Shown piece after piece: positions 24,697 through 30,503 of a DNA stretch of 64,000 bases. The notes beneath the pieces were generated by a model. It was not told where the DNA came from. It saw only the letters and a program-made list of their open reading frames with translations, and searched no databases. The translations under genes were made by a program, and so were the position numbers. The DNA lies in NCBI RefSeq assembly GCF_900129455.1, contig NZ_FQVU01000003.1, forward strand, positions 434,001 to 498,000. The letters are read 5' to 3'. The stretch is from Jatrophihabitans endophyticus (GTDB lineage Bacteria; Actinomycetota; Actinomycetes; Mycobacteriales; Jatrophihabitantaceae). Position 1 is the stretch's first letter, and every line of letters starts with the position of its first letter.

Positions 24697-25123
24697 CATG
24701 AACCAGCGCATCATCGACGAGTTCCACACGAAGGACGGCATCGTCTCCGGGCCGTTCGACGGCGCGAACATCGTGCTGCTGCACCACACCGGCCGTCGGT
24801 CCGGCACCGGATACGTCGCGCCCGTCGTGTGGTTCGCGGGGCCGCCCGGCGCGATCCACGTGGTCGCGTCGGCCGCCGGGGCGCCCACCCACCCGCAGTG
24901 GTACGAGAACCTGGTCGCGGCGGGCCGGGCCACCGTCGAGGTCGGCCGGGGCGACGGCGTCGGCGGCATCGACACCCACGACGTGACCGTCCGCGAGCTC
25001 GACGGCGAGGAGCGCGACCGCGTCTACGCCGACATCGTGCGGCAGGCCCCGTTCTTCGGCACCTACGCGGAGAAGACGGCGGGCGTGCGCACCATCCCGG
25101 TCCTGGAGTTGACGCGATCATGA
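24689..25123 (+). CDS. DDN-family F420-dependent oxidoreductase-like protein
   Basis: 144 residues. The pattern [19 protein letters not shown] is the FMN/F420-binding signature of the deazaflavin-dependent nitroreductase (DDN) family, followed by [10 protein letters not shown], typical for the C-terminal half. Family members use reduced F420 to reduce quinones or other acceptors; F420 is common in actinobacteria, and the substrate here is unknown. The ATG at 24689 overlaps aspS by 8 bp; an ATG at 24698 would drop three residues. The stop overlaps the next start (ATGA), so it travels with the aspS operon. Confidence 0.88.
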
Positions 25124-26019
25124 GCTCGCCCACCGACATCCCCGGCTTCGGGGGCGGCCACCCCGATCCCGTCGACCCGTCCGCCGGTCCCGACGCGGCC
25201 GGCGGGATCCGCAACGACGCGGTGCGGGCCGCGCTGGACGCGTCGGCCGAGTCGCCGGGGCCGCGGACGAGCGTCGACATCCTGCGCCACTGCCTGTTCG
25301 GCTACCTGCTGCTGGACGTCACGGGCTCGGAGATCACGGTGACCGACGAGGGCGAGGTCGCGCCCGGTTCGACGATCTCGGTACGCGGCGGCGAGGGCCC
25401 GGACGGTCAGCCGGCGATCTTCGCCTACACCTCGCACGACGAGATCGTGCGGATGTACCCGCCCGAGGGACCGGGGGACGGCATCGAGGTGCAGTCCCTG
25501 GTCCAGGACGCCGCGGGCGTGCTGGAGCTCGCCCGCGCGCAGGAGGCCGGCTGGCTCTACCTCGACCCCGCCGGGCCGAGCGCGGCACTGGCGGCCGAGG
25601 ACATCGACTTCGCGCTCCGGGTGCCCCGCAACGACGCCGTCCGGGCGACGCTCGAGCCCGGCGTGCCCCGCGCCGAGCTGCTCGCCGCGCTCACGGCGGA
25701 GGGGCCGCTCTCCCTCGCGGTCATCGCGCCCGACGTCGAACCCGGCGTCGCCGAGGAGGGCACCCAGGTGCAGGTGCGCACCGTCGACGCCCCGGAGCTC
25801 ACCGACGGCGCGCAGGCGCTCGCCGTCTTCACCTCCGGTCCCGAGGTCGTGGCCAGCGCGCCCGAGGACCGGATCGCGACGCAGACCGCCGCCGACGTCG
25901 TCGAGCTGGCCCGCGAGGGCGGCTTCGCCGGGCTGCTGATCAACCCGGCCGGGCCGTGGGCCTACGTGAGCGCCGACGAGCTGGCCGGGCTCGACACCGC
26001 GGGCGGCGCGGGGGAGTAG
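25120..26019 (+). CDS. SseB-like protein with two tandem domains
   Basis: 299 residues, very acidic, no signal peptide. After a Pro/Gly-rich N-terminus two similar halves follow. Both contain a RNDAVRA block (about 27 and 170), a strand region ending in FAYTSHDEIV or AVFTSGPEVV, and a closing WLYLDPAGPSA or LLINPAGPWA block. That order is the SseB N-terminal domain pattern seen twice. SseB was named for serine sensitivity enhancement, but the biochemical role is unclear. It overlaps the DDN gene by ATGA. A 178-nt gap follows in which I see nothing definite. Confidence 0.8.
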   Translation: MSSPTDIPGFGGGHPDPVDPSAGPDAAGGIRNDAVRAALDASAESPGPRTSVDILRHCLFGYLLLDVTGSEITVTDEGEVAPGSTISVRGGEGPDGQPAIFAYTSHDEIVRMYPPEGPGDGIEVQSLVQDAAGVLELARAQEAGWLYLDPAGPSAALAAEDIDFALRVPRNDAVRATLEPGVPRAELLAALTAEGPLSLAVIAPDVEPGVAEEGTQVQVRTVDAPELTDGAQALAVFTSGPEVVASAPEDRIATQTAADVVELAREGGFAGLLINPAGPWAYVSADELAGLDTAGGAGE

Positions 26020-26197
26020 CCGGGCCCGGGCGTGCCCGGTCTGCCCCGTTCGCCCGCCCGCCGGTCAAGGTGCTGCTGTGCCGGCGTCAACTCGCTCTTA
26101 AGTCCCGCTGTGGACGCTGCGGTCCGCGACGCACCGGCCGATGCAGGGGACGAGCCGGCCGCCGGTGCCGGTGTCGTTCCCGAGGAGAGGACCAGCC

Positions 26198-26776
26198 ATG
26201 ACCGCTGTCTCCGGCCTGAGCAGCATCGCGAGCTCCACGCTCGCCGCGACGACGCAGCAGAGCCGCCCCAAGTCCGCGATCGACGTCGCCGCCGACCTGT
26301 TCGGCATGAGCACGACCGACCTGACCAGCGAGCTGAAGTCCGGCAAGAGCCTGACCGACGTCGCGTCCGAACAGGGCGTGTCGAGCGACGACCTCGTGTC
26401 GGCGCTCGTCTCGACCATGCCGAAGGACCTCGCCGCGAGCGGCGACCCGACCGAGATCGCCACGACCATCGCCGAGCAGGTCGGCCTGCCGCAGGGCGGC
26501 CCCGGCGGCCCCGGCGGCGTGGGCGGCCCGGGCATGCCGCCGCCACCTCCGCCGGCGGACGCGTCGGACTCGTCGGACTCCGCCACGGCGTCGTCGGGCT
26601 CGACGACGTCGGTGCTGGACGAGCTGAGCACGCTGCTCGGCACCGACTCCGACACCCTCACCGGGCAGCTCACCAGCGGCACCAGTCTCGCCGACCTGCT
26701 CGGGAACGCCGGCGTCAGCATGACCAGCCTGGCGAACGTGCTGCAGACCGGGCTGCTGCTCGACGAGACCGCCTGA
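26198..26776 (+). CDS. protein with two LG-x-S-type helical modules joined by a Gly/Pro linker
   Basis: 192 residues of no family I can name. Two related modules of about 45 residues are visible: LFGMSTTDLTSELKSGKSL then TDVASEQGVSSDDLVSAL (about 30-66), and LLGTDSDTLTGQLTSGTSL then ADLLGNAGVSMTSLANVL (about 145-180). Modules of the form LGxSxxxLxxxLxSGxSLxDxAxxxGVS recur in actinobacterial and firmicute secreted or surface proteins. A Gly-Gly-Pro and poly-Pro linker (about 95-118) and a Ser/Asp stretch join them. No clear signal peptide. The ATG has GAGGAGAGG upstream. It converges on the antiporter gene; a small GGGCC/GGCCC hairpin lies between (26781-26794). Confidence 0.7.
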   Translation: MTAVSGLSSIASSTLAATTQQSRPKSAIDVAADLFGMSTTDLTSELKSGKSLTDVASEQGVSSDDLVSALVSTMPKDLAASGDPTEIATTIAEQVGLPQGGPGGPGGVGGPGMPPPPPPADASDSSDSATASSGSTTSVLDELSTLLGTDSDTLTGQLTSGTSLADLLGNAGVSMTSLANVLQTGLLLDETA

Positions 26777-26804
26777 CGGCGGGCCGGGCGGCCCGTGGCG
26801 CGGG

Positions 26805-28301
26805 TCAGTCGTCGTCGCCGGTCTCGCCGAACCAGCGGGCCAGCGAGCCGCGCCGGCTGACCGCGCGCAGCCGCTGCTCGGTGACCTCGCGCTCCTTGCG
26901 GCTGGTGACGATGAGCATCTCGTCGCCCACCCGCAACCGCGTGGTGTGATCCGGCACGAAACTGCGACCGTCGCGGATGACGAGCGTGATGACGCTGCGC
27001 TGGGGCAGCCGCAGCTCGAGCACCGAGACCGAGTCCAGCCGGGAGCCGCGCTGGATGGCGACGGTGAGCAGCTCGGCGTCCAGGACGTCCAGGGGCGCGG
27101 CCTCGACCTCGAGATCGCGCAGCGCATCCCGCGGCGCGAGGCCGAGCAGCTTGGCGAACGGCGACAGGCTGGGGCCCTGCAGCAACGTGAAGACCACGAC
27201 CAGCACGAAGACGATGTTGAGGACGCGCTCGCTGCCGTCGATGCCCTCGACGATCGGGAACGTCGCCAGCACGATGGGGACGGCCCCGCGCAGCCCGGCG
27301 AAGGACAGGAACGCCTGCTCGCGCACCGGCACCCGGAACGGCAGCAGCGAGGCGAACACCGACAGCGGCCGGGCGACGAGCAGCAGCACCAGGCCGGCCA
27401 CCAGGGCGGGCACGACCTGTCTGGGCAGCGCGCTGGGATCGACGAGCAGGCCGAGCAGGACGAACAGCCCGATCTGCGCCAGCCAGCCGAACCCCTCGGC
27501 GAACGACCGGGTCGCCGCCCGGTGCGGCAGGCCGGTGTTGGCGAGCACGAGCGCGGACAGGTACGCCGCGAGGAACCCGCTCGCGTGCGCCGAGCCGGCG
27601 GCCGCGAACGCGACCATGCCCAGCCCGAAGATCGCGAGCGGGTAGAGGCCGGACGCCGGCAGGGCGAGGCGCGAGAGGGCGTACGTGCCGGCGAAGCCGA
27701 CGCCCACCCCGATCGCGGCGCCCACGCCGAGCTCGTAGACCAGCTCGCCGACCAGGTGCAGCGGGTCGAGGTGGAACGGCGTGGCGCTGAAGATGGCGAC
27801 GAGGATGACGGTGGGGGCGTCGTTGAAGCCCGACTCGGCCTCGAGCAGGCCGGCGACCCGCTTCGGCAGCGGGACGACACGCAGGATCGCGAACACCGCC
27901 GCCGCGTCGGTCGAGGAGACGATCGCTCCCACGAGCAGTGCCAGCTGCCAGTCGAAGCCCAGCAGCAGGTGGACGCCGACGGCGGTGGTCACCGTGCTGA
28001 TGCCGACGCCCAGCGTGGCGAGCAACCCCGCCGGCGCCATGACGGACCTGACCTCCGACCATCGGGTCGTCAGCCCGCCCTCGACCAGGATGACGGCGAG
28101 GGCGGCGGTGCCGAGATCCTGCGCGGCCTGCGCGTTGTCGAAGTTGATGCCGAGGACGTCCTCGCCGAGCAGGACGCCGAAGGCGAGGAAGAGCAGCAGA
28201 CTGGGCAGGCCGGCGACGGAGGCGAGCCGGGTGGCCCCGATGCTGACGAGCACGACCAGCCCGCCGACGAGCAGCACCAGATACAGCTCGTCGAGGGTCA
28301 C
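26805..28301 (-). CDS. CPA1-type potassium/proton antiporter with TrkA-C domain (NhaP2/CvrA-like)
   Basis: 498 residues. About 12-13 membrane helices make up residues 1-390, with the family blocks GAIVSSTDAAAVFAIL, EAESGFNDAPTVILV and SFAGLRGAVPIVLATFP. A cytoplasmic TrkA-C-like domain (about 410-480, DSVSVLELRLPQRSVITLV, VGDEMLIVTS) follows and probably binds a nucleotide or second messenger. It would exchange K+ or Na+ for protons across the membrane. A -10 TAAACT lies 33 nt upstream on the minus strand. No neighbouring gene points to its cue. Confidence 0.92.
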   Translation of the reverse strand: MTLDELYLVLLVGGLVVLVSIGATRLASVAGLPSLLLFLAFGVLLGEDVLGINFDNAQAAQDLGTAALAVILVEGGLTTRWSEVRSVMAPAGLLATLGVGISTVTTAVGVHLLLGFDWQLALLVGAIVSSTDAAAVFAILRVVPLPKRVAGLLEAESGFNDAPTVILVAIFSATPFHLDPLHLVGELVYELGVGAAIGVGVGFAGTYALSRLALPASGLYPLAIFGLGMVAFAAAGSAHASGFLAAYLSALVLANTGLPHRAATRSFAEGFGWLAQIGLFVLLGLLVDPSALPRQVVPALVAGLVLLLVARPLSVFASLLPFRVPVREQAFLSFAGLRGAVPIVLATFPIVEGIDGSERVLNIVFVLVVVFTLLQGPSLSPFAKLLGLAPRDALRDLEVEAAPLDVLDAELLTVAIQRGSRLDSVSVLELRLPQRSVITLVIRDGRSFVPDHTTRLRVGDEMLIVTSRKEREVTEQRLRAVSRRGSLARWFGETGDDD

Positions 28302-28334
28302 GCGGGTCCTTCCCGGCCGGCTGGGTGGCCCTCC

Positions 28335-28340
28335 AGTTTA
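28335..28340 (-). promoter_or_regulatory. -10 element TAAACT for the antiporter
   Basis: On the minus strand TAAACT lies 33 nt before the start at 28301 and is one of the few AT-rich hexamers in this neighbourhood; GGAAGGACC in the leader is the likely ribosome site. Confidence 0.5.
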
Positions 28341-28394
28341 AGGGGGACGTGACCGGTGGGCGGCCACGGGGCACAGGCGCCGGCGGGCCGCGGG

Positions 28395-29090
28395 TCAGCC
28401 GACCGCCGCGGCGAGCGAGGACGGGCCGTCGAGGTGGCCGACGACGGTGGCGCCGAGGAACGCCAGCACGCAGACCGCCGACAGCGCCGCGGTGAGCGCG
28501 ACGGGCAGCACCGCCCGCCGCGCGGGGCGTCGGGCGGGGCGCCGCCCGCCGTCGCGCAGCACGGGCCGCGAGCCGGCCGTGGCGCCGAGCCACCCGAGCA
28601 GGGCGACCACGAACCCGGCGGTGCCCGTGACGATCACGATGTCGGCGAGATTCCAGTAGTGACCGGCGAAGGGCAGGTAGTCGACCGCGCCGCGCACGCT
28701 GTCCGGGGCGGTGAGGTAGTGCAGCCCGAGCCGGTCGCCGAGGTTGCTGGCCCAGCCCGCCAGGGCCGCGCCGCCGGTCAGGGCGACGGCGCGCGTCGGG
28801 CTGTGGCGGGCGAGCAGCAGGCCGGCCAGGGCGACCAGCGCCGCGTCGACGACGTCGAACACCGCGCCGGTGACCCGGCCGGTCAGCAGCCCGCCGACCA
28901 CGCCGCCGGTGAACGGGTTGCCGCCGGAGTTGACGTGGACGTCGCCGAGGACCCGCCAGGCCCATGCCTTGAGCACCTGGTCGAGCGCGGCCACCGCGAT
29001 CACCAGGACGGTGACGACCGCGCCGTAGGTCCGCAGCCGCTTCGGCGGCACTCGGCGGACGGGGGCGGGCGCGGGCGCGAGTGCGGTCAT
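28395..29090 (-). CDS. LspA-like (signal peptidase II family) membrane protein
   Basis: 231 residues, about five helices. The catalytic aspartate motifs of lipoprotein signal peptidase are recognisable as NLGDRLGL (about residue 110) and WNLADI (about 142), with VDYLPF before the second. It departs from the housekeeping enzyme in two ways: the usual NxGxAFS block is replaced by VNSGGNPFTGG, and a fifth hydrophobic segment (about 203-224) is added at the C-terminus after an Arg-rich loop. It may be a paralogue with a special substrate. The ATG at 29090 starts a Pro/Ala-rich N-terminus; the gene is divergent from the IPT gene across about 267 nt without a clear promoter. Confidence 0.8.
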   Translation of the reverse strand: MTALAPAPAPVRRVPPKRLRTYGAVVTVLVIAVAALDQVLKAWAWRVLGDVHVNSGGNPFTGGVVGGLLTGRVTGAVFDVVDAALVALAGLLLARHSPTRAVALTGGAALAGWASNLGDRLGLHYLTAPDSVRGAVDYLPFAGHYWNLADIVIVTGTAGFVVALLGWLGATAGSRPVLRDGGRRPARRPARRAVLPVALTAALSAVCVLAFLGATVVGHLDGPSSLAAAVG

Positions 29091-29333
29091 CGTGCCAGCG
29101 AATCGGGTGGCGCTGGCCGCGCGGCGGGTGTGACCCCGGTGGCCGCTGGGCCCGCGCTGTGCAGGAACGATGCGCCGTGGCCCGGCCGTCGTCACGCGGC
29201 CGACCGGTTCGTGTCGCGGCGGTCGGGGCCGTCGCGAAACTTGTGCGCGCACGGGCTCAACTCGCGCCGCGACCGGTCGATGGACAGGGGAGCCGCACGG
29301 AAGCGGCGGCCGCGGCCGGATCCCCCGGGCCGC

Positions 29334-29353
29334 ACTACTTATGGAGGAGTAGT
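29334..29353 (+). promoter_or_regulatory. hairpin carrying the ribosome site of the IPT gene
   Basis: ACTACT (29334-29339) and AGTAGT (29348-29353) form a perfect 6-bp stem. The loop TATGGAGG holds most of the GGAGGAG Shine-Dalgarno sequence; its last two bases are in the stem. The ATG is 4 nt beyond. Such a structure can present the site on a loop or limit access depending on temperature or a ligand. The stem is AT-richer than anything around it. Confidence 0.55.
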
Positions 29354-29357
29354 CCGA

Positions 29358-30377
29358 ATGTCCAAGACCATCACCCGGCGCGTCGTCGCCGGCGTCGCCG
29401 CCACTGCGGCCACCGCGGGCGCCCTGATCATGGGCGGTGGCTCGGCCGAGGCCACCCCGACCATGGCCATCTCGTCGTTCAACGTCCACCACCTGCCGGC
29501 CACCACCGCGAAGTCCCTGCTGACCATCACCGGCACCGCCTTCAGCGAGTCCGCGATCAGCGGCGTCGCGATCAACGGCTGCACCGCCGGCTCCTACGTC
29601 GTCACCTCGTCGACCACGATCGTGTTCAAGACCGACAACAGCTGCGCGAAGTCCTCGACCGGTGTCGTCACCATCAGCAAGGCCGCCGGCGGCAGCGTCG
29701 TCTCGGCGAACTCCGGCAAGACCGCGCTCGCCTTCGTCGACCTGCCCTCGCTGGCCACCAACGACGACTCCGCCAGCGACCCGGTCGTCACCGCGGGCAC
29801 CGCCGGCCAGGCCTTCGCCGACCAGACCAAGACCGCGTCGCTCTCGGGTGGCCAGGCCATCCGCGTCACCGCCGGCACGGTCAAGTTCGTCAACAGCGCG
29901 TCCTACCCGCTGTCGGCCACGGTCGACGGCTACGCGCTCAAGTCGATCACCATGCCGACCGGCGGCAACTACTTCACCGGTGTGCTCCCGGCCATGGCCG
30001 CCGACGCCGCCCCGAAGCTCGCGGTGACCAGCAACGGCGTGACCAAGACCTTCAGCTACGCCGCCGGCAACAGCAGCGCCGTCGCCGACTCGTTCGACTT
30101 CCAGATCTCGGCCAGCCCGACGATCTCGGTCACCCCGGCCTCCGGCCCGCTCGACGGCACCAACGTCATCGCCATCAAGGGCAGCGGCTTCACCGCCTCG
30201 ACCACGGTCACCGTCGACAGCGCGAGCTGCCCGGTCGTGGCCAGCACGGTCAAGGCCACCTCGCTGAGCTGCACCGTGGCCGCCGGCACCACCACCGGCC
30301 CGGTCACGGTCCAGACCTCGACCGGCGGCACCACCAGCATCGTCAGCGCCGGCAGCACCTACACCTACGTGGACTGA
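29358..30377 (+). CDS. secreted protein with IPT/TIG-like repeats
   Basis: 339 residues. A Sec signal peptide MSKTITRRVVAGVAATAATA with cleavage probably after SAEA (about residue 32) is followed by a Ser/Thr-rich beta protein. Two IPT/TIG-like units are visible: ISSFNVHHLPATTAKSLLTI through INGCTAGSYVVTSSTTI (about 36-100), and ISVTPASGPLDGTNVIAIKG through VTVQTSTGGTT (about 256-330). Each contains a pair of cysteines that may form a disulfide. Codons end almost only in C, the ribosome site GGAGGAG is ideal, and a strong hairpin follows, all signs of a highly expressed surface or matrix protein. No anchor motif is seen at the C-terminus. Ligand unknown. Confidence 0.85.
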   Translation: MSKTITRRVVAGVAATAATAGALIMGGGSAEATPTMAISSFNVHHLPATTAKSLLTITGTAFSESAISGVAINGCTAGSYVVTSSTTIVFKTDNSCAKSSTGVVTISKAAGGSVVSANSGKTALAFVDLPSLATNDDSASDPVVTAGTAGQAFADQTKTASLSGGQAIRVTAGTVKFVNSASYPLSATVDGYALKSITMPTGGNYFTGVLPAMAADAAPKLAVTSNGVTKTFSYAAGNSSAVADSFDFQISASPTISVTPASGPLDGTNVIAIKGSGFTASTTVTVDSASCPVVASTVKATSLSCTVAAGTTTGPVTVQTSTGGTTSIVSAGSTYTYVD

Positions 30378-30424
30378 TCCGCGCAGCAGCACCACCGCAC
30401 CACCGCATCACCAGCACCACCCGC

Positions 30425-30461
30425 GGCGGTGGCGGCAGGCCCTCGGGCCGCCGCCACCGCC
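30425..30461 (+). terminator. strong hairpin terminator after the IPT gene
   Basis: GGCGGTGGCGGC (30425-30436), a bulged A and GGCCC pair with GGGCC and GCCGCCACCGCC (30445-30461) around a 2-nt loop: 17 base pairs. No U-tract follows, as is common in GC-rich actinobacteria. It insulates rarA from the IPT gene. Confidence 0.75.
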
Positions 30462-30503
30462 GTCGGCGTTCCCGGACCGGCCACCGGTGTCGCCTCACGG
30501 CCC

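Follow-up and report, generated by a model that had tools for sequence, protein, structure and literature searches.

The gene for a secreted IPT protein of Jatrophihabitans endophyticus has a leader with two candidate hairpins that carry ANGGAN hexaloops, the second of them over the Shine–Dalgarno sequence, and this layout resembles that of the flagellin leader in the same genome. The IPT gene probably belongs to the motility regulon, as the gene of a flagellum-coregulated secreted protein, with CsrA as the repressor and FliW lifting the repression. The computed part of this CsrA–FliW reading consists of the anatomy of the leader, the presence of csrA and fliW, the flagellin-like layout, the covariation in flagellin leaders, and codon bias. 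The features of the gene and its surroundings are as follows; positions are those of the window, i.e., the whole 64,000-nt stretch of DNA that was analysed.

29256–29281, + strand: flagellar (FliA-type) promoter-like element, CTCAAC-N14-GTCGAT, with two mismatches to the flagellin promoter
29292–29307, + strand: SL1, upstream hairpin GCCGC-ACGGAA-GCGGC with an ANGGAN hexaloop, candidate first CsrA site
29334–29353, + strand: SL2, hairpin ACTACTT-ATGGAG-GAGTAGT over the ribosome site with an ANGGAN hexaloop, candidate second CsrA site
29343–29349, + strand: Shine–Dalgarno sequence GGAGGAG, read from the sequence
29358–30377, + strand: coding sequence of the secreted IPT/TIG protein, 339 amino acids, called with our own codon model and one Pfam family and showing codon bias
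29358–29453, + strand: probable Sec signal peptide with an AEA cleavage site, read by eye from the translation
30126–30368, + strand: C-terminal IPT/TIG domain, residues 257–337 (Pfam PF01833)
30419–30469, + strand: strong GC hairpin past the IPT gene, a possible terminator without a T-run

A sequence-only reading of this DNA had described a ribosome site framed by an ACTACT/AGTAGT stem and taken it as the sign of a possible temperature- or protein-responsive switch. The stem is real, forming a hairpin of seven pairs (−6.9 kcal/mol at 37°C in a local fold), and its loop, AUGGAG, matches ANGGAN, the CsrA/RsmE loop, with ANGGA lying over the Shine–Dalgarno sequence. As a sign of a switch, the hairpin by itself is at chance level: perfect stems of at least six pairs surround the Shine–Dalgarno sequence at 12 of the 285 starts that possess one, the shuffle rate being 3.2%, and SL2-type hairpins occur in 38 of 1,087 predicted leaders, against 34 expected from shuffles. 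A sequence search against known RNA families gave no match at the gathering score. SL2 also encloses a three-codon frame, ATG GAG GAG TAG (29341–29352), which is probably due to chance.

It is the joint presence of SL2 and a second hairpin upstream, SL1, which the earlier reading had missed, that exceeds chance. The leader sample covers 1.304 Mb, or 29% of the genome, and comprises 1,087 leaders, whose gene starts were predicted with a simple purpose-made codon model; both hairpins are present in just two of them, those of flagellin and the IPT gene, where shuffles lead one to expect 0.05. Because the IPT gene was chosen for its Shine–Dalgarno hairpin, the fair chance figure is that of the upstream hairpin given SL2, 0.0037 per shuffled leader. 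When gene starts are ignored, the two-hairpin pattern matches six times anywhere in the sample and 14 times in the reversed sequence, i.e., without enrichment; a third two-hairpin match (in locus L082) was discounted, as it lies away from any predicted gene start. SL1 of the IPT leader is predicted to compete with a more stable register shifted by a GCGGCGGC repeat, and the register displaying ANGGAN has a predicted probability of 0.05–0.13. Since the sample represents 29% of the genome, further targets may exist.

The genome encodes both regulators. csrA (PF02599, E = 3.2e-20) adjoins fliW (PF02623, E = 6.3e-25), CsrA, FliW, and flagellin were each confirmed by Pfam, and the PDB relatives of this CsrA are CsrA/RsmE proteins. 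In the flagellar cluster, csrA lies beside fliW, flgL, and flgK, the other strand nearby carries a sigma gene, flagellin, and fliD, and further flagellar genes are close; flgL, flgK, the sigma gene, fliD, and the other cluster names are what we take these genes to be from their translations. Within the family, csrA is present in 15 of 24 genomes, this one included. The flagellin leader of this genome has an upstream hairpin, CCGATCC-ACGGAT-GGATCGG, and a second one, GTTTG-GGAGG-CAAAC, over the Shine–Dalgarno sequence, and both hairpins recur in every one of the 13 leaders of flagellin genes that were found (10 genomes of 15 examined), one of these leaders having an SL1 with just two contiguous pairs followed by a mismatch. 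Compensatory change is seen in both stems: five of eight SL1 pairs are changed on both sides (none of 500 shuffles matched the covariation score), as are three of six SL2 pairs (pairing reached by 3 of 2,000 permutations). These tallies add a fourteenth flagellin leader, from G016, a genome whose csrA locus ends at a contig edge and which was added after the flagellin search in the 15 csrA loci had found 10 genomes positive at E = 1e-40. No flagellin was found in the csrA loci of G019, G013, G008, and G023. Genome G006 (locus L117) has four neighbouring flagellin genes with identical Shine–Dalgarno hairpins, three of them without the promoter element.

Relatives of the IPT gene are rare. No full-length relative of the protein was found among 101 relatives' genomes or 396 genomes of the phylum (this genome included in each), and no homologue was found in the plasmids, phages, viral contigs, and genome_contigs searched. 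Upstream of rarA, the gene is absent from 21 of 21 other loci searched, three of which had less than 600 nt upstream. With the N-terminal 250 residues as the query, a single full-length homologue was found among 394 genomes of the class, in G127, a member of another family; it is 41% identical over most of its length, and its codon bias is likewise above average (rank 27 of 305 by CAI). csrA, fliW, flgK, flgL, and the sigma gene lie on one contig in G127 (423 kb sampled). The leader of the homologue contains GGGGC-ACGGAA-GCCCC, in which the loop is identical to that of SL1 of the IPT gene and the stem is altered. This hairpin forms with a probability of 0.82–0.99 in three longer sequence contexts and 0.46 in the shortest, and hairpins like it occur in G127 at 0.0012 per 100 nt. 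The sequence-only reading had looked to the stem being conserved in relatives: in this one homologue the Shine–Dalgarno sequence reads ACGGAG within a stem of two pairs, so that SL2 is not kept and that expectation fails in part, and the upstream stem is retained. The promoter match of the homologue has four mismatches. The flagellin of G127 has ACGGAGG at its Shine–Dalgarno sequence, similar to the IPT homologue there, and its start is preceded by a perfect flagellar promoter and an ANGGAN hairpin of 13 pairs (L180:16346–16410), just before the end of the contig.

Codon use bears out the claim of C-ending codons and supports that of high expression. C-ending codons number 242, against 202 expected from the amino acids of the protein, and with 23 translation genes as the reference set, the CAI of the IPT gene is 0.865, the second highest among 1,027 sampled genes; the rank stays the same when amino-acid composition is corrected for, and the gene was likewise second of 371 in a first, smaller gene sample. 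Flagellin ranks 50th by CAI. The 26 nt ahead of the IPT start have the second lowest GC content among 371 starts, and across the sample low GC before starts correlates with codon bias (rho = −0.26). These figures bear on the explanation that survives best beside the CsrA–FliW reading, namely that this is an ordinary strong ribosome site in a leader whose GC content has been lowered in favour of high expression, its hairpins being accidental and no regulator involved. The GC trend speaks for it, as does the chance-level frequency of SL2 alone, and the local fold of SL2 is no better than that of shuffles (z = −0.61). However, it does not account for the confinement of both hairpins to the IPT gene and flagellin among the sampled leaders, or for the recurrence of SL1 with an identical loop in the G127 homologue, and we regard it as unlikely.

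Considerably less probable is that a 5′ hairpin stabilises the mRNA and raises the yield without a regulator. The stability of SL2, the exposure of Shine–Dalgarno bases in its loop, and the extreme codon bias of the IPT gene would suit such a role, which leaves the ANGGAN loops and the flagellin-like layout unexplained. The palindrome, with its perfect 6-nt arms, could also be an operator to which a transcription factor binds on the DNA; the genome contains the exact arms a single time (a reversed control pattern occurs four times), no copy is present in 23 family relatives at up to three mismatches, and the palindrome is positioned at the ribosome site, so that an operator was rejected as very improbable. 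An RNA thermometer, in which heat would melt the stem that encloses the ribosome site and free it, was rejected after folding at 10–55°C and is scarcely credible, as the predicted formation of the inner pairs of SL2 never drops below 94% between 10 and 45°C in any context tried (the outermost pair alone is looser) and four of the seven Shine–Dalgarno bases are unpaired in the loop at every temperature folded. Of the two kinds of switch first proposed, the temperature-responsive one thus falls away, and the protein-responsive one gains support from the CsrA-type loop, the presence of csrA and fliW, and the matching layout of the flagellin leaders.

Transcription from a flagellar-type promoter would fit the CsrA–FliW reading. 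The promoter-like element of the IPT gene agrees with the flagellin element, CTCAAG-N14-GCCGAW, at 10 of 12 positions, and its −10 region lies at −82, where flagellins bearing the element or a near match have it at −84 to −90. The final promoter matrix was built from eight distinct sites, none of them from this genome, with the three element-less G006 flagellins excluded, and ranks the IPT leader 10th of 1,087; an earlier matrix that included those three ranked it 13th of 1,087. As chance would give about 1.2 scores as good, the promoter-like element of the IPT gene is supporting evidence only. Leaders that score higher are those of flgB, cheB, flagellin, flhA, cheA, an FlbD gene, and three others, one of them the top-ranking IPT gene described below; all but flgB and these three were identified by Pfam, and flgB is what we take that gene to be. 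A canonical sigma-70 promoter was sought for the IPT gene and none was found. The best flagellar-type promoter of the 1,087 leaders precedes the gene of another secreted IPT protein (L082, minus strand, start 6565; L061, contig C1 of this genome, about 811–813 kb), with a middle part that is presumably of the NlpC/P60 type, and this protein is possibly a second IPT member of the motility regulon.

According to the CsrA–FliW reading, a FliA-type promoter would transcribe the IPT gene, and a CsrA dimer would bridge the two ANGGAN hairpins of the leader, one of which contains the Shine–Dalgarno sequence, thereby blocking the ribosome. Export of flagellin would free FliW, which would remove CsrA, and the IPT protein would then be made alongside flagellin and leave the cell through Sec. 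A wider proposal is more tentative: the actinobacterial flagellin–FliW–CsrA checkpoint may also govern a second, Sec-exported Ig-like protein, timed with flagellin and acting extracellularly, together with the flagellum or at the surface of the swimming cell, and the abundant leader RNA may titrate CsrA.

The IPT identity that had been given to the product is confirmed by PF01833 (TIG), the sole Pfam family in the 339-residue protein (E = 3.9e-12; 46.4 bits against a cut-off of 20.9). A second TIG domain in the N-terminal part was considered and rejected (weak self-match, E = 0.005), and a structure prediction from the single sequence was unusable (pLDDT 38). Like other IPT/TIG proteins (PF01833), the protein has a C-terminal TIG domain and is secreted; for its remainder, the genomes searched contain a single full-length relative. 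The signal peptide, read by eye, and the TIG domain together suggest a surface or matrix protein, and we infer its function to be one exerted at the cell surface or the flagellum; in the motile cell it is probably an abundant component, either extracellular or at the cell surface. The 17-bp terminator reported past the gene is in part upheld: the hairpin is there, with 17 contiguous closing pairs and one bulge (z = −2.76), and as no T-run follows, it is not a canonical intrinsic terminator. Elsewhere in the neighbourhood, the stretch 25120–30377 (SseB-like, unknown, Na/H antiporter, LspA-like, and IPT genes) was not seen upstream of rarA in G002, a genome of the same genus; its place is taken there by an F420H2-reductase-like gene, of which the end is present, and by the gene of a probable membrane protein (names by eye). 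Positions 26198–26776 encode a 192-residue protein with no family match above the cut-off.

The proposed control has parallels in known systems. ANGGAN loops are bound by CsrA/RsmE; most hairpins obtained by SELEX had at most four pairs, whereas SL2 of the IPT leader has seven (PMC7652899). In Campylobacter jejuni, repression by CsrA has been shown for flaA, whose leader likewise has two ANGGA-loop hairpins, the second over the ribosome site, and compensatory changes among Campylobacter species parallel those in the actinobacterial flagellin leaders; the GGA motifs are 21 nt apart in flaA and 44 nt in the IPT leader, and the product here is an IPT protein with Sec-type secretion rather than flagellin (PMC4894983). 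Bacillus subtilis hag is repressed by CsrA through two sites, one over the Shine–Dalgarno sequence, with FliW as the antagonist, and csrA and fliW are also present in J. endophyticus; in contrast to hag, the IPT target is not flagellin, and CsrA control is here predicted from sequence (PMC7652899). Among actinobacteria, a CsrA site over the Shine–Dalgarno sequence of flagellin was predicted in 2008 for Kineococcus radiotolerans; that prediction covers flagellin only, and the hairpins, the covariation, and a second target go beyond it (PMC2587704). A limited open-access literature search of titles and abstract openings found no second actinobacterial CsrA target.

In Bacillus and Campylobacter, the CsrA–FliW pair is an established checkpoint on flagellin. 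In the leader described here, a lone hairpin without statistical weight acquires meaning once the remaining leader is considered. If the reading is true, a second CsrA–FliW target, recognised by its flagellin-like pair of hairpins, would open a way into the regulon of motile actinobacteria and to a secreted protein that is uncharacterised and probably abundant.
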